Shown here one piece after another: positions 3 to 18,384 of a stretch of 31,919 bases of DNA (its first letter is position 1; each line of letters opens with the position of its first letter). Source of the DNA: a virus. The notes under the pieces were generated by a model, which saw only the letters and a program-made list of their open reading frames with translations, did not search any database and had not been told where the DNA came from. The position numbers and the translations under genes were made by a program. The DNA lies in IMG/VR virus record IMGVR_UViG_3300020221_002860, positions 1 through 31,919 of that record. One strand, written 5' to 3'.

Positions 3-692
3 CAACTGCGTCCTTACAAGAATCTGCAAGAGATGCTGTACGATGACGAAGGCAACTGGCGTCACAGCAAGATGAACAAGACGGCTCTCACTGCTCTGTG
101 CAAGATTGATGCTTTGACTTCCTTAGAAGATTTTAACTTAGGACGCGTCAATAATCATAAGCAGCTTCTCATGGCTCTGACTGACGACAAGAACTACGAG
201 ACTCTTCGCCGCGGTTTGTACGGACTCACTTCATCACAGTTGAAGAAGAAGGCCAAGGCGGGAGAGAAGATCGAAGCTTTCTTGGATTTGACTCTCGCTG
301 ATCTGACCGAGGTTGAAGACTGGTCTCGTGAGGAGAAGATTGAGATGTGCAAGGATTTGACGCAGTCTGTGGACACTGACCTCTTGTTCCCCCCAGCTGT
401 GATGGAAAAGATCACTGAAAAGAATGTTCCGAAACTCCATGATGTACCAGCTGGCGCTGAAGGCATAGGTTGGTTCTGTGTGTCTGAAGTGCAGGTCAAG
501 AAGACTAAGAATGGCAAGATCTTTTATAGAATCAAAGCTACGGACGACGAGCATCGTTCGGCATGGCTTCGAGCCTGGGGCACTCCCAAGGAAGAGATTC
601 GACCCTATACACTTTGGGTCGCACAAGTTCAGCATGATCCTAATTGGGGATTTTCAACTTCTGTCTACAAGATGAGAGAGCTGGTCGGCTGA
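3..692 (+). CDS. DNA polymerase III alpha subunit-like, C-terminal part (5' truncated by window edge)
   Basis: The reading frame is open from base 3 with no stop before it, so the gene enters from upstream; the first internal ATG is at 33. The visible part resembles the C-terminal region of bacterial-type DnaE replicative polymerases. A helical segment with the pattern KMNKTALTALCKIDALTSLED looks like the helix-hairpin-helix part after the palm and fingers domains. Then comes a linker and an OB-fold-like stretch (GWFCVSEVQVKKTKNGKIFY, then an aromatic- and Trp-rich strand region), as in the DnaE OB domain that binds single-stranded template. The catalytic PHP and palm domains would lie upstream and are not visible. 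The stop at 690-692 directly precedes the next gene's ribosome binding site. The family is inferred from pattern recognition; the polymerase core cannot be checked here. Confidence 0.65.
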   Translation, partial: QLRPYKNLQEMLYDDEGNWRHSKMNKTALTALCKIDALTSLEDFNLGRVNNHKQLLMALTDDKNYETLRRGLYGLTSSQLKKKAKAGEKIEAFLDLTLADLTEVEDWSREEKIEMCKDLTQSVDTDLLFPPAVMEKITEKNVPKLHDVPAGAEGIGWFCVSEVQVKKTKNGKIFYRIKATDDEHRSAWLRAWGTPKEEIRPYTLWVAQVQHDPNWGFSTSVYKMRELVG

Positions 693-700
693 GGAAATAC

Positions 701-1612
701 ATGACAACACAATTTCCCATTCGTTACGTGATCGTAGAAGGTCCTGATCTGTCTGGCAAAACTACCTTTATTAGACAATTGCATAAGGCAACGGGTTTTT
801 ACTATAATATTCAGGATCGTTCCTGTCTCTCTATGATGTGTTATGCTAAGCAATACAGTCGCGACATTGAGACGCAAAAGCAATTCTTACGTGAAGAACT
901 GTCTGATCTAAACAACTTCTTTGTCATTTTATTGCCCTCAGAAGAGGTCCTCTTAGACCGCCTCGCATTTCGAGGAGATGAATTTCAGAACGCTTCTTCG
1001 GTCGTGACTCTTAGAAAGCTGTTTGAAGAAGAAGTCGATAAGATTTCTCACATGCCTAACGTGCTTGTGATCAGAAATATTGCTTCTGCTGAGCAGCTTG
1101 CTGAGTACATCGGTCATCGACTTCGTTCATATGAAAGGTCCAATCCCAACGAAGTCGGTGCCATGACTTCTACGTGGGTTAACGGCGTGAAGCACACAGA
1201 AGAACAATTGAAATTTAAGATGTGTATCAGTCCTGAATACTCTGATGCTACCATTTTAGACAATCCGCATGAGGGTGAATACTACAAAGGCATCATGAGA
1301 AAATGCTGTGACATCATTGATGATGAAGTGAGCGGTAAGAATCCGTATGGTAAGCCGCAAGATCTTGACTCCCGTCGCTTCTACTATTCAAGCGATTCCT
1401 GCATATCTTCCATTCATTTTATGCCTCGAGATGGTGACTTGAAAGTTCTATGCACTCTTCGTAGCACTGACGTCAGAAAGAACGGATCAATTGACACAAG
1501 ATTCTTAGCACATCTGTCATCGTACGTGTCAAGAAAATTCAGATGGCCTGTCAAGAATATTCATCTCTATGTCAATTTTAACAGTGCACACGTGAGACAA
1601 GATTTAATTTGA
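701..1612 (+). CDS. Fused P-loop dNMP kinase and thymidylate synthase/dCMP hydroxymethylase-like protein
   Basis: 303 aa. The frame is open upstream to 644, but ATG 701 follows the DnaE stop with GAGGA at 691-695, so 701 is preferred. Residues 1-150 form a thymidylate-kinase-type P-loop domain: Walker A GPDLSGKTT, a DRS motif, and a lid-like DRLAFRGDEF. Residues about 155-303 match the core of thymidylate synthase without gaps over 32 positions: DSRR (R225, R226), Cys234 at the place of the E. coli nucleophile Cys146, then RSTDV (Arg166 region), then HLY (H288, Y290) matching dUMP-binding H207/Y209. The position of Asn177 is Asp265; Asp at this site is the known signature of T4-type dCMP hydroxymethylase. 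The N-terminal part and C-terminal tail of the synthase fold are missing, so activity is uncertain. Likely role: making and phosphorylating a (possibly modified) pyrimidine deoxynucleotide. Confidence 0.7.
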   Translation: MTTQFPIRYVIVEGPDLSGKTTFIRQLHKATGFYYNIQDRSCLSMMCYAKQYSRDIETQKQFLREELSDLNNFFVILLPSEEVLLDRLAFRGDEFQNASSVVTLRKLFEEEVDKISHMPNVLVIRNIASAEQLAEYIGHRLRSYERSNPNEVGAMTSTWVNGVKHTEEQLKFKMCISPEYSDATILDNPHEGEYYKGIMRKCCDIIDDEVSGKNPYGKPQDLDSRRFYYSSDSCISSIHFMPRDGDLKVLCTLRSTDVRKNGSIDTRFLAHLSSYVSRKFRWPVKNIHLYVNFNSAHVRQDLI

Positions 1613-2648: not shown

Positions 2649-3602
2649 ATGGTTAAGGCGCTTGTTACGGGTGGAGCTGGTTTTATTGGCAGTAATTTAG
2701 CTAATACCTTACACTCTATGGGTTGGCATGTTGAGATAGTTGACGATATGTCAAATGGATATGTGCAATTTTTACATGTTGATTTGAGATCAACTCGACT
2801 TTGCATGGATGATTTCACATGTCCTGAAATTCTTAACAGAATTGAGAACAAAGAGTATGACTATGTGTTTCATCTGGCAGCAAATCCAAGAGTTTCTTAT
2901 TCTATTGAAAAACCTGCAGAGACACATGAAGTTAATGTCCTCAAGACTCTACGCTTAGCCGATTCATGCAAAGGCAACGTTAAACGATTCGTCTTTGCCG
3001 CGTCTTCATCTTCATACGGTGACGCAAAGTTTTTACCAACTTCAGAAGAATGTCCTGATAATCCTCGATCTCCCTATGCTTTACAAAAAGCAATTGTTGA
3101 AAAATATCTGAAGCTCTATAGCGAGATCTATAATCTAGACTCTGTTTGTCTTAGATTCTTTAACGTCTTTGGGCCCAATCAATTAGGAGACTCTCCATAT
3201 TCGACTGCAATATCTGCATGGCTGACTGCGATAAAGCGCGGCAAATCTATGAGATCAGATGGCGATGGGTCACAGTCACGAGACATGTGTTACGTTGACA
3301 ATGTCGTAGATTGCTTGATTAAATCAGCCCTTATAGAAGGTAAACTTAACGCTGAGATCTTAAATGTAGGTGTAGGCGAAGTCGTAACTAATGCAGCCAT
3401 ATTGAAATATTTAATGCGTCGTTATCCTCAGGCGACTTCACATAATGCTCCATGGCGACCAGGCGATGTTATGCATACCAAAGCTGACATAACCAAAGCA
3501 AAAAAGCTCGTAGGTTACGAACCTAAAGTAAATGTTTGGCAAGGTTTAGATATGACAGTTGATTGGTATGAGAATAATTGGGAGTGGCTCAAGAATCTTT
3601 GA
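2649..3602 (+). CDS. NAD-dependent sugar-nucleotide epimerase (UDP-glucose 4-epimerase-like SDR)
   Basis: 317 aa extended SDR. The NAD-binding motif GGAGFIGSNL sits at residues 8-17, the conserved HLAA segment near residue 75, the catalytic Ser in FAASSSSYG and Tyr143-x3-Lys147 in YALQK. RFFNVFGPNQ is the typical substrate-loop signature of UDP-glucose or UDP-N-acetylglucosamine 4-epimerases. The segment RDMCYVDNVVD is also characteristic (RDFxYVxDVV). The start is supported by AAGGAG about 8 bases upstream. It is only distantly similar to the preceding SDR, so the two are probably different enzymes rather than a recent duplication. The sugar substrate is unknown. Confidence 0.87.
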   Translation: MVKALVTGGAGFIGSNLANTLHSMGWHVEIVDDMSNGYVQFLHVDLRSTRLCMDDFTCPEILNRIENKEYDYVFHLAANPRVSYSIEKPAETHEVNVLKTLRLADSCKGNVKRFVFAASSSSYGDAKFLPTSEECPDNPRSPYALQKAIVEKYLKLYSEIYNLDSVCLRFFNVFGPNQLGDSPYSTAISAWLTAIKRGKSMRSDGDGSQSRDMCYVDNVVDCLIKSALIEGKLNAEILNVGVGEVVTNAAILKYLMRRYPQATSHNAPWRPGDVMHTKADITKAKKLVGYEPKVNVWQGLDMTVDWYENNWEWLKNL

Positions 3603-3611
3603 GGTGTAAAA

Positions 3612-4181
3612 ATGCTAAATGCACCAGAGTTTATTGTCTATACAGGTCCGATGTTTTCTTCAAAAACATCAAGTTTACTATCATCTCTGGAGAGATACAA
3701 GTACCAAAATAAAAAAGTAGTTCTATATAAACCTGAAATGGATGACAGATACAGTGTTTCTGAGGTTGTCACTCATGGCGGTCACAAGATGTCTGCTTTT
3801 TGTGTAAAGGGAGGTGCTGATATCATTGAACATCTAGCAACGCTGAATGAGAACCCACACGTCATTGCAGTTGACGAAGCATTCATGCTGCCTGGCGTAG
3901 CAGAGACTCTAATCTGGCTTTATAGAAATGGCTACACTATTGTAGTGTCTTCTCTAGATCTTTCTGCCACGGGCGCAGTATTTGAAGAAATTGAGAAGAT
4001 GATGATTTGGGCAACAAAAGTTGAAAAATGTACTGCAGTTTGCACAGCATGCGGTAGAGACGCACCCTACACACATAAGAAGCAATCGGGCGGCGACCTC
4101 ATTGAAGTGGGTGGCTCAGAGCTTTATGAGCCAAGATGCTTTTTGCATCATCTTCATATTGACAAGAGACTTTCAGACTAG
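3612..4181 (+). CDS. tdk: Thymidine kinase (type II, TK1 family)
   Basis: 189 aa, the usual length for type II thymidine kinase. It phosphorylates thymidine to dTMP with ATP. The P-loop GPMFSSKT is at residues 12-19, the DDRYS and THGG segments follow, and VDEAFML holds the catalytic Glu and Walker B Asp. SSLDLSATGAVFE matches the conserved strand before the lasso loop. The zinc ribbon is seen as CTACG plus a second pair near the C-terminus (YEPRCFLHH). GAGG lies before ATG 3612. The next gene, dCMP deaminase, starts 2 bases after the stop, forming a pyrimidine salvage pair common in large phages. Confidence 0.92.
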   Translation: MLNAPEFIVYTGPMFSSKTSSLLSSLERYKYQNKKVVLYKPEMDDRYSVSEVVTHGGHKMSAFCVKGGADIIEHLATLNENPHVIAVDEAFMLPGVAETLIWLYRNGYTIVVSSLDLSATGAVFEEIEKMMIWATKVEKCTAVCTACGRDAPYTHKKQSGGDLIEVGGSELYEPRCFLHHLHIDKRLSD

Positions 4182-4183
4182 TC

Positions 4184-4609
4184 ATGGAAAGACCGAGCTG
4201 GCCTGAAACATGGATGAAGATCGCTTGGAATATCTCTGAGAGATCATATGATTCTCGACTAAAAGTTGGCGCTATAGTCGTATCTGACGACAACACCAGA
4301 CTTCTTTCTTTGGGTTACAATGGTAATTATCGAGGAGGGCCAAACAAGCCTGAAAGCGATGAGCCAGGCTTAAGTGGAATGATACATGCTGAAGTCAATG
4401 CTCTGATAAAATGCGATTACAACTTTAATAGAAAAAAGATCATGTATTTGACGCATTCGCCCTGCGTGTCGTGCTCTAAACTTATTGTTAATGCAGATAT
4501 TTCTACGGTAATTTATGATGTTGACTATAGAGATCTTTCTGGTTTGCAGATACTTAGAAATTCAGGAGTTGAAGTAATTAGATTGAATGACTTAATAATT
4601 ACATCTTGA
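4184..4609 (+). CDS. Deoxycytidylate (dCMP) deaminase
   Basis: 141 aa zinc-dependent deaminase that converts dCMP to dUMP. The active-site motif HAEVNAL provides a zinc ligand (His68) and the proton shuttle (Glu70); SPCVSC supplies ligands Cys94 and Cys97. The N-terminal half carries KVGAIVVSDDNTRLLSLGYNG, typical of the dCMP deaminase branch. Translation is probably coupled to the thymidine kinase gene 2 bases upstream. With the kinase/synthase-like fusion and thymidine kinase it forms a pyrimidine dNTP supply block. Substrate preference for dCMP over cytidine is inferred from the branch signature and context. Confidence 0.88.
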   Translation: MERPSWPETWMKIAWNISERSYDSRLKVGAIVVSDDNTRLLSLGYNGNYRGGPNKPESDEPGLSGMIHAEVNALIKCDYNFNRKKIMYLTHSPCVSCSKLIVNADISTVIYDVDYRDLSGLQILRNSGVEVIRLNDLIITS

Positions 4610-13917: not shown

Positions 13918-14520
13918 TTAATCAGCTAGCACAAGAGAGACATAGCGACGCAGTAGAGATTCTGTTGTCGCTGTTTTCTTTTTTGCTTTGAGTATATCAA
14001 TGATCTCTTTGCTGAATTTTCTCACGCTAGGCGGTAACATCTTAGCAAAGTTTTTCACGTCACCTGCTTCAAGATAGGCTCTCATCATCGTGCCGCTAAT
14101 ATCAGGCGTCTCCTGTCCTCTCGTCACACCACGTGTGATAATTTGCCCTTTGCCTTGAAGCCGAGGTGCATATTTCATAAGAGACTTTTCGCTGTACTTC
14201 TGGATATCCTCACTGTCAGAATAGATGGTGAACGTATCTTTGGACTTGGCCTTTTCAGCCTTCTCAAGCTCTTGCCACACAGCTGCGACAGGCACGCCTA
14301 CGTCGATCATCTGAACGTTACCGGGCAATGAAGGCCGGACAAACTTATCGATAATTTGTTGCATGTCAGCACCGTACAACGGCATCTCGCCCTTCCTAAG
14401 ACGATCAGCAGTTGAGCTAAAAACTAAAACAGCGTCATTTTCACCAGCTGCCATTCTCACTAGAGCATCATGACCCGCATGGTACGGCTTAAAACTTCCA
14501 GGTACTAATCCAATCTTCAT
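13918..14520 (-). CDS. HIGH-type nucleotidylyltransferase (NMNAT/cytidylyltransferase-like)
   Basis: 200 aa on the minus strand; the frame extends further, but the ATG at 14520 starts exactly at MKIGLVPGSFKPYHAGH and avoids the divergent Nudix gene. GSFKPYHAGH (residues 8-17) holds the HxGH motif that binds the nucleotide phosphates, and ISGTMMR in the C-terminal half is the ISSTxxR-like motif. Such enzymes transfer a nucleotidyl group to NMN, nicotinate mononucleotide, phosphopantetheine or glycerol phosphate; the substrate cannot be fixed here. The C-terminus ends in ESLLRRYVSLVLAD, a C-terminal version of the motif seen at other N-termini. Divergent from a Nudix hydrolase 39 bases away. 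Confidence 0.8.
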   Translation of the reverse strand: MKIGLVPGSFKPYHAGHDALVRMAAGENDAVLVFSSTADRLRKGEMPLYGADMQQIIDKFVRPSLPGNVQMIDVGVPVAAVWQELEKAEKAKSKDTFTIYSDSEDIQKYSEKSLMKYAPRLQGKGQIITRGVTRGQETPDISGTMMRAYLEAGDVKNFAKMLPPSVRKFSKEIIDILKAKKKTATTESLLRRYVSLVLAD

Positions 14521-14547
14521 TAACGTATATTTATCTGTTATGCAAGG

Positions 14548-14553
14548 TAAGAT
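14548..14553 (+). promoter_or_regulatory. -10-like TAAGAT before the Nudix gene
   Basis: In the 39-base divergent gap between the nucleotidylyltransferase and Nudix genes, TAAGAT ends 6 bases before ATG 14560. The gap must hold promoters for both directions; on the minus strand an AAATATA-type sequence lies just before the other ATG. Confidence 0.3.
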
Positions 14554-14559
14554 ACTGTC

Positions 14560-14955
14560 ATGAGAGACGAAATTTCCTGCGGTGCTGTTGTCTATCGGTT
14601 GAATCCTGCTCCGCAGATTCTGCTCGTCAAACAGAACGAAAGCTGCTGGGGAATACCGAAAGGACACATGGAGACAGGTGAATCATTTCTTCAAACAGCT
14701 TATCGAGAAGTAAAAGAAGAGACAGGAATTAAGATTAAGGCAATTAGCAGATTACCTCACATCACTATAAAGAAGAAGAGATTTCGCAAGACAGTAGTTC
14801 CGTACCTTGCCGTGCAAATTTGCAATGCTACACCTCGGTGCGATGACAAGAATAGTGAGGTAATTGACGTGGGATGGTTTGACGTGAATTGTCTTCCTCC
14901 CGTCTTGAAATCTCAGATGCCTATAATTGAGGCAGCTCTCTTACTAATTGGCTAA
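14560..14955 (+). CDS. Nudix hydrolase
   Basis: 131 aa. A complete Nudix box is seen at residues 35-57: G-x5-E41-x7-R49-E50-x2-E53-E54-x-G56, within GHMETGESFLQTAYREVKEE. The family hydrolyses nucleoside diphosphates linked to another group (dNTPs, ADP-ribose, Ap4A, NAD, RNA caps). The N-terminal AVVYRLNPAPQILLVKQNESCWGI is closest in feel to Ap4A- or MutT-like branches. It lies divergent to the HIGH-type nucleotidylyltransferase. A fused NMNAT-Nudix enzyme exists in NAD metabolism, so the pair may act on NAD-type compounds, an inference from neighbourhood only. Confidence 0.88.
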   Translation: MRDEISCGAVVYRLNPAPQILLVKQNESCWGIPKGHMETGESFLQTAYREVKEETGIKIKAISRLPHITIKKKRFRKTVVPYLAVQICNATPRCDDKNSEVIDVGWFDVNCLPPVLKSQMPIIEAALLLIG

Positions 14956-17373: not shown

Positions 17374-18384
17374 GTGATCAATTACGCAGATGTTATAGTC
17401 GACCTTCAGCAAGGCGATAGTGGCAAGGGAAAGATAGCGAATTATTTGACACAAAACGGCGAATACACGCACGTCATTCGTTACAACGGCAGCAACAACG
17501 CGGGACACACGATCTACTTAAACGGAGAGAAAGTGGTCACGCACGCAATTCCAGTGGGTGTGCTGCACGGAATCAAGAGCATCATAGGTCCGGGTTGCGT
17601 GCTCAATGTTAAACACTTCTTTGAAGAGTTAAGAGAGCTTGAAGAGTGCAACGTCTACGTGAGAGATTTAGTGAAGATCTCATCCAATACACACATCATT
17701 ACAGACGATCATCTGCTAGAAGACTCAAAAGAAGTTCTCATTGGTACCACGCGTCGAGGCAATGGGCCCGCTTACCGAGACAAATACGGTCGTAGAGGAA
17801 TTCGAGCTTCACAGATTCCTGATCTGCGGCACTATCTCGTTGACGTCTATGAAGAGCTTCATTTGTCGCAGAATGACAGCAGAATACTGTTTGAAGGCGC
17901 GCAGGGGTTTTACCTGGACATAGATTGGGGAGATTATCCGTATGTCACCTCGTCGCACTGCACAGCAGGTTCTGCCGTTATGAATGGTGTGCCGCCTCAA
18001 AAGATCAGACGAATATATGGCGCAGCGAAGATCTATGAGACTTACGTGGGTTCTAAAAAATTTGAACCTGAAAACATCATCTTTTCTAAGATTAGAAATT
18101 TGGGTAACGAGTACGGCGCCACGACGGGAAGACCCAGACAATGCAATTGGCTAGATGCTGATAAGCTAGTCAAAGCTGCACGTGTCAACGGTGTCACGGA
18201 TCTCATCATGAGTAAAGTAGACGTTCTTCGTGAACTTGAGGCTTGGTGCTTGTACAGCAACGGTGCCGTCGTTACCTTCAATTCAGAGAAATCGATGATG
18301 GAATTTTTAATCAGCAAACTTGACGGAATTGTTCTGTACTGGAGCGACGATCCTGAGAGTATCGGTCGAATTGTGCCCTCATGA
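17374..18384 (+). CDS. Adenylosuccinate synthetase-like protein (short phage PurA/PurZ-type)
   Basis: 336 aa from GTG 17374 (GGAGAA 6-11 bases upstream); cellular PurA is about 430 aa, while phage PurZ-type enzymes are about this short. Family motifs: GDSGKGK (residues 14-20), NNAGHT with His45, IGTTRRGNGPAYRDK, GRRGIR, FEGAQG, YPYVTSS, GATTGRPR for aspartate binding, and SKVD for the guanine base of GTP. PurA joins IMP and aspartate; PurZ makes the precursor of 2-aminoadenine from dGMP. The catalytic Asp of GDEGKGK is kept (Asp15), which favours PurA-like chemistry, but the next residue Glu is Ser16, unlike PurA. The substrate is open. It is transcribed apart from the preceding operon. Confidence 0.85.
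   Translation: MINYADVIVDLQQGDSGKGKIANYLTQNGEYTHVIRYNGSNNAGHTIYLNGEKVVTHAIPVGVLHGIKSIIGPGCVLNVKHFFEELRELEECNVYVRDLVKISSNTHIITDDHLLEDSKEVLIGTTRRGNGPAYRDKYGRRGIRASQIPDLRHYLVDVYEELHLSQNDSRILFEGAQGFYLDIDWGDYPYVTSSHCTAGSAVMNGVPPQKIRRIYGAAKIYETYVGSKKFEPENIIFSKIRNLGNEYGATTGRPRQCNWLDADKLVKAARVNGVTDLIMSKVDVLRELEAWCLYSNGAVVTFNSEKSMMEFLISKLDGIVLYWSDDPESIGRIVPS

Follow-up and report, generated by a model that had tools for sequence, protein, structure and literature searches.

The open reading frame at positions 701-1612 (+ strand) of the window, the complete 31,919-bp IMG/VR virus record analysed here, encodes a protein of 303 aa plus stop in which a P-loop kinase is fused to a shortened thymidylate synthase (TS) fold, hereafter the mini-TS. 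About 35 further full-length fusions were recovered, all in uncultured phages. The kinase::mini-TS travels with an odd second ThyX (ThyX2), which suggests an unrecognised route to a modified cytosine base in phage DNA. Tentatively, we propose that the fusion is bifunctional and serves a cytosine-modification pathway of phages, in which the mini-TS would modify dCMP at C5 together with ThyX2 and the kinase would act on the product. The open-licence literature searched yielded no description of TS fused to a kinase, of a TS fold as short as 150 aa or of a dCMP pathway linked to ThyX.

The ATG is preceded by GAGG at 691-694 and by the C-terminal end of a gene for a DnaE-like DNA polymerase III alpha subunit (3..692, +; equivalent to L121 3466-7065, 1199 aa, and L134 3470-7084), which lies directly upstream of the fusion in all nearer homologues. 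One relative has a DnaE gene (L197 111-7027) broken by several intein- and homing-endonuclease-like insertions. Downstream of the window's fusion are two NAD-dependent epimerase/dehydratase (SDR) genes of the sugar-nucleotide type (1628-2623 and 2649-3602, +; PF01370, 2.1e-50 and 9.9e-50), a thymidine kinase (TK) gene (3612-4181, +; PF00265, 2.4e-39) and a dCMP-deaminase-like gene (4184-4609, +; PF00383, 2e-19), the last two being syntenic in relatives. This gene order, with TK and dCMP deaminase adjoining the fusion, is fitting for dCMP metabolism; no sugar-transferring gene was identified adjoining the window's fusion copy. A nucleotidyltransferase-like gene (CTP_transf_like, weak) on the opposite strand (13918-14667, -) is kept in G001 and G002, two records collinear with the window, at ~50% identity. 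The window also carries a PurZ-like adenylosuccinate synthetase gene (17374-18384, +; phrog_1211, E 3.7e-69; N-terminal GDSGKGK), suggesting 2-aminoadenine metabolism. Close relatives of this PurZ are encoded by 318 stretches in viral contigs, and its best match among phage records is LR756501, a 735-kb phage. 2-Aminoadenine (Z) DNA was rejected as a general partner of the fusion, PurZ being present in just 2 of 21 fusion records, although the window itself carries one.

Residues 1-146 (701..1138, +) form a TMK/YorR-like P-loop kinase domain with a shortened NMP-binding segment. Within the P-loop EGPDLSGKT (residues 13-21; 737..763, +), E13, G14, D16, G19 and K20 are invariant in 21 homologues, as are D39 and R40 of the DRS motif of TMK-like kinases (residues 39-41; 815..823, +). 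The N-terminus matches the thymidylate kinase family phrog_761 (E 1.9e-11), a profile of four orthologues found YorR in the PDB (2.2e-7), and the kinase half aligned structurally with YorR at Z 13.4 over 139 residues. Family models scored below their cut-offs (PF02223, 17.7 bits versus 27 required by Pfam; TIGR00041, 21.3 versus 83.25 required by NCBIfam). Between the P-loop and the DR motif the fused kinase has 17 residues, compared with 45 in YorR, 47 in the G002 kinase and 53 in RB69p045, and at ~30 residues shorter it is without the usual NMP-binding segment. With this segment absent, it is possible that the fused kinase does not act as a dNMP kinase of the classical kind.

The C-terminal half is a TS-superfamily fold according to structural modelling. 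Sequence searches had little to offer: PF00303 gave no match at E<=1 in the fusion protein or the window, HMMER against PDB sequences missed the TS half even with a four-sequence profile, and a single-sequence alignment with E. coli TS was marginal (z about 2, in SD above shuffles). An AlphaFold2 model of residues 145-303 (1133..1609, +), built from nine orthologues, reached a pLDDT of 91.5 and a pTM of 0.89. The PDB matches listed by Foldseek all belonged to the TS superfamily, led by EfTS (9.7e-7) and the HY126 dCMP hydroxylase 9iqu (1.0e-6), and the top matches were TS, CMP-hydroxymethylase or dCMP hydroxylase structures. VIA aligned 135-147 of the 159 mini-TS residues at Z up to 11.5 (the CMP hydroxymethylase MilA, 5b6e, 11.5; 9iqu, 10.8; 9iqc, 10.7). 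The confidence of the model and its TS-superfamily neighbours indicate that the fold is real, and together with the phrog_761/YorR-like N-terminus they bear out the initial annotation, which had described a kinase fused to a shortened TS and proposed structure prediction as a check.

That annotation had the fold lacking both the N-terminal part and the C-terminal tail of the synthase. The tail is indeed missing, but the domain does contain the first helix and the first strand of TS, aligned from TS residue 1; the order in the model is helix, strand, helix, SRR strand. By model and alignment, what is absent besides the tail is the middle of the fold (about E. coli 42-108), the stretch that in TS bears the catalytic Glu58 helix and folate contacts. 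In T4 gp42 the corresponding Glu60 is catalytic and is conserved in all TS/CH/dCH members, and the folate contacts include Trp82 and Tyr96 (PMC6400193); the segment with the Glu60 helix and both of these contacts is missing from the 159-residue mini-TS. A self-contained folate-dependent hydroxymethylase is unlikely for this reason.

The nucleotide-binding residues of the fold are retained. Arg225-Arg226 (1373..1378, +) correspond to EcTS Arg126-Arg127 and by equivalence form the phosphate site, Cys234 (1400..1402, +) is by equivalence the nucleophile Cys146, Arg254-Ser255 (1460..1465, +) match EcTS Arg166-Ser167, and His297 in an NSxH motif (1589..1591, +) matches EcTS His207. Asp265 (1493..1495, +) occupies the position of E. 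coli Asn177 and of Asp179 in T4 gp42, which protonates cytosine N3 (PMC6400193). It lies 31 residues after the Cys and at Arg+11, both spacings being identical in E. coli TS; His297 lies 63 residues after the Cys, compared with 61 for E. coli His207. All of these residues, as well as Glu191 of an E..YY motif (1271..1273, +), are kept in 21 aligned and 15 further full-length fusions, an invariance that spans ~36 sequences down to 34% identity and makes a chance occurrence of Asp265 at the Asn177 position untenable. Glu191 could possibly stand in for the missing catalytic Glu58/60. Counterparts of EcTS Tyr209 and R21 are not visible in the mini-TS. At the E. coli Asp169 position, Asp257 is Asp in the near group and Asn or Glu in many other homologues; the matching Asp171 of T4 gp42 makes a water-mediated pterin contact (PMC6400193), and RB69p048, a flavin-type enzyme according to its PDB title, has Asn there. 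The mini-TS looks to have kept the dCMP-binding half of the fold with the nucleophile and a cytosine-type Asp.

R225, R226, C234, D265 and H288 are found where the initial annotation placed them, and its assignment of Asp265 to the Asn177 position holds. The gapless alignment with the TS core that it described extends from C234 to D265, with an 11-residue gap between DSRR and the Cys. Its HxY motif at His288 did not survive comparison with orthologues, which have A, L, S and other residues there; the conserved His is His297, with no Tyr209 equivalent. The dCMP-hydroxymethylase signature it proposed stands as regards the cytosine-type Asp and the closest profile (hhalign with the mini-TS profile: T4-gp42-type hydroxymethylases, E 1.2e-8; full-size TS of syntenic phages, 7e-5; RB69p048-type 5-hydroxy-dCMP synthases, 6.5e-4; canonical TS, 0.3), but not as regards a stand-alone hydroxymethylase, given the absent Glu60, Trp82 and Tyr96 stretch.

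Single-sequence searches with the whole protein returned no relative in viral contigs or in 35 PurZ-selected records and, in phages, one weak kinase-only match (GR1) and nothing else. Relatives were reached using SDR1 as synteny bait, which yielded three orthologues with 48-74% identity, and subsequent profile scans gave the 21 aligned full-length fusions and 15 more, with a few near-identical pairs among these. The TS-part profile had no match in bacterial and archaeal genomes, and the full fusion profile matched on two archaeal-MAG contigs. A fusion-like match with 34% identity (L334 6001-6891) comes from a contig that bears the label Euryarchaeota MAG PBHZ01000014 and may be a mis-binned virus. 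An origin of the fusion by deletion of a carbamoyltransferase block of the G002 type was rejected, the fusion being both widespread and old and P0002, the small TS-like protein of G002, showing no relation to the mini-TS that hhalign could measure (E 0.2).

A full-size TS fold (PF00303) is absent from all 26 fusion records, the window included, and present in all six syntenic non-fusion relatives. G001 and G002 encode their kinases separately; their full-size TS, of 333-336 aa, lies between SDR2 and TK and carries Asp at position 177. Full-size TS genes also occur in G043-G046, and those sequences that were read have Asp177. These enzymes (L106 1474-2475, L107 1219-2229 and L210-L212, with Asp at the Asn177 position) are probably dCMP-hydroxymethylase-like, and with full-size TS and PurZ together two modified bases may coexist in G001 and G002. 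In G002 a block on the minus strand (L118 782-4955) between DnaE and the SDRs encodes the kinase, an ATP-grasp+HAD protein, a NodU-type carbamoyltransferase and a 217-aa possibly TS-like protein, and in the Bacteroides phage BF494P1 (L234 1542-4818) the order is carbamoyltransferase, P-loop kinase, dCMP hydroxymethylase; carbamoylated hydroxymethyl-dC is a possible product of such blocks. In G001 the carbamoyltransferase block is replaced by a gene for a 341-aa protein of glycosyltransferase-like appearance (L111 978-2003) between the kinase and SDR1.

Fusion records that reach upstream of DnaE contain ThyX2, a second, divergent ThyX of 322-327 aa with about 67-84% mutual identity. Five fusion phages also have a canonical ThyX, and the full-size-TS records with a ThyX match (G001, G043-46) have canonical ThyX only. 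A scan for ThyX2 gave 111 loci, of which 80 were kept, with the fusion 4-9 kb downstream in 23; whole-record searches of 28 other ThyX2 records revealed the fusion in 16, including one kinase-only case at a contig end. Among records of at least 40 kb, the fusion was present in 31 of 35 with ThyX2 versus 0 of the 5 shown with canonical ThyX only. The Fisher value for this co-occurrence, about 2e-4 (calculated by hand and leaving out records G020 and G027), overstates independence since the records are phylogenetically related, and the co-occurrence may stem in part from shared ancestry. In the remaining four ThyX2 records of this size class no fusion was detected, and all four may be incomplete. 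Two further genes near ThyX2 have conserved positions in fusion phages: one for a 315-aa protein whose C-terminal half is HAD-like, adjoining ThyX2 (L223 1323-2270), and one for a 151-aa nucleoside deoxyribosyltransferase-like protein (L223 4375-4830), the GR1 homologue of which is so annotated.

The cultured Geobacillus phage GR1 (OK896991) encodes a ThyX2 (UDY80709) with 45% identity, and the stop of its gene overlaps the start of the next, for a 'hypothetical' protein of 151 aa (UDY80710) with mini-TS profile scores of 31.6 and 28.2 bits. Its motifs follow in order (EPYY, YSSDECISTIHF, QRSS, EDDVQF, MPHV), with Gln replacing the second Arg of the RR pair. A stand-alone GR1 kinase of 145 aa (UDY80706) matches the fused kinase (46.6 bits), and within about 6 kb there are the kinase, a nitroreductase (UDY80708), a glycosyltransferase and the nucleoside deoxyribosyltransferase-like gene. 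This separate, overlapping gene shows that the mini-TS also exists unfused and coupled to ThyX2. The GR1 'RNase HI' was rejected as a hidden mini-TS, being a true RNase H. A search through the text of the endolysin paper on GR1 turned up no DNA-modification test of this phage.

Under the proposed function, the invariant residues and fold imply that the mini-TS would bind dCMP, with Asp265 recognising cytosine N3/N4 and Cys234 adding to C6 under the control of Asp265, so that C5 would be activated. Because the part with the folate contacts and catalytic Glu is missing, both the redox chemistry and the unit transferred, carbon or oxygen, would come from outside, most likely from ThyX2, a role we infer from the co-occurrence and the gene overlap in GR1. 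The fused kinase would then carry the modified dCMP towards the dNTP. In a narrower and rather doubtful version, ThyX2 and the mini-TS are the two components of a single enzyme: the TS fold would bind and activate dCMP, and the flavoenzyme with the ThyX fold would provide the oxygen or one-carbon unit.

An unlikely alternative, though the strongest of those considered, is that the mini-TS is a small flavin-dependent 5-hydroxy-dCMP synthase of the RB69 type fused to its kinase. Structures 9iqu and 9iqc are among the closest folds, both families share SAHV at the His motif, many fusion members have Asn at the Asp169 position, a TMK-like kinase lies within a few genes in RB69 and PEi20, and GR1 carries the nitroreductase and glycosyltransferase. 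Yet the profile similarity is weaker than to the hydroxymethylases (6.5e-4 versus 1.2e-8), RB69p048 retains an entire 238-aa fold, and outside GR1 the linkage is to ThyX and not to a flavin reductase. More doubtful is a non-catalytic mini-TS that serves as a nucleotide-binding or specificity domain in place of the kinase's lost NMP-binding part. The ~30 residues missing between P-loop and DR motif fit such a role, as does a TS half that retains the phosphate and base pocket and has lost the catalytic-Glu segment. It is disfavoured by the invariant nucleophilic Cys, which like His297 exceeds the needs of binding, and by GR1, where the mini-TS is apart from the kinase and overlaps ThyX2 instead.

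Slightly less probable again is the view of the initial annotation that the fusion is a self-contained, folate-dependent dCMP hydroxymethylase like T4 gp42, joined to a kinase for hydroxymethyl-dCMP. The Cys and Asp177 signature, the best profile similarity and the full-size hydroxymethylase-like gene that takes its place in syntenic relatives all speak for it; against it, the segment with catalytic Glu60, Trp82 and Tyr96 (PMC6400193) is missing, Asp169 is not conserved in the fusion family and ThyX2 is left unexplained. That the fusion acts on dUMP/dTMP to supply thymidylate in the ordinary way, ThyX2 being no more than an additional thymidylate synthase, is very improbable: TK and dCMP deaminase adjoin the fusion and TIGR03283, the model of the short thymidylate synthase of methanogens, gives a weak match (E 0.0025, far under cut-off), but the Asp at the Asn177 position is invariant, five fusion phages already own a canonical ThyX, and the ThyX motif of ThyX2 is not the canonical one.

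The family has discarded the middle of the TS fold across dozens of large phages, and a ThyX paralogue stands where relatives have retained a full-size TS of the hydroxymethylase-like kind. Should the proposed cytosine-modifying function be true, phages would have a further, new way into modified cytosine, and studies of defence and counter-defence a new target; if ThyX2 and the mini-TS are indeed one enzyme, two unrelated thymidylate-synthase folds would jointly carry out a new reaction on cytosine, and the kinase for the product would be fused on. The cultured GR1 makes the pathway directly testable.

TS-fold enzymes open the known phage dC-modification routes to hm-dC and 5-hydroxy-dC, and a kinase is next to the synthase in the known C-modifying phages RB69, PEi20 and BF494P1. 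T4 gp42 deoxycytidylate hydroxymethylase and its phage relatives share with the mini-TS the TS fold, the Cys nucleophile and Asp at 177/179, but are full-size proteins (the three used have 226-253 aa), with the folate site and catalytic Glu60, and form a single-enzyme system with neither kinase fusion nor ThyX partner. A TS-superfamily 5-hodCMP synthase has been described in Mosigvirus (PMC13390438), and RB69p048 is nearly identical to the phage HY126 dCMP hydroxylase (9iqc, 9iqu). This 5-hydroxy-dCMP synthase type resembles the mini-TS in its close fold, Asp177, SAHV motif and, in RB69 and PEi20, a TMK-like kinase near by; it differs in its 238 aa, intact N-terminal half and weaker profile similarity, and in having the kinase as a separate gene. 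MilA gave the best structural match (Z 11.5 over 142 aligned residues, 3.1 A) and takes cytosine nucleotides as substrate, as proposed for the mini-TS, whereas it has about 320 aa and a complete folate site and belongs to secondary metabolism. The SPbeta YorR and thymidylate kinases have the same P-loop kinase fold as the fused kinase, and YorR shares with the fusion an RGD(E) motif; YorR is stand-alone, and the fused kinase is short of it by ~30 residues of NMP-binding segment. ThyX2 passes the PF02511 cut-off (E about 1e-18 to 1e-21) but has 322-327 aa where canonical ThyX proteins from the same phages have 222-267 aa, and its motif is altered to RHRAG(T/S)FAAQCTGDR, a departure from the canonical ThyX motif (RHRAGTFAAQCTGDR).
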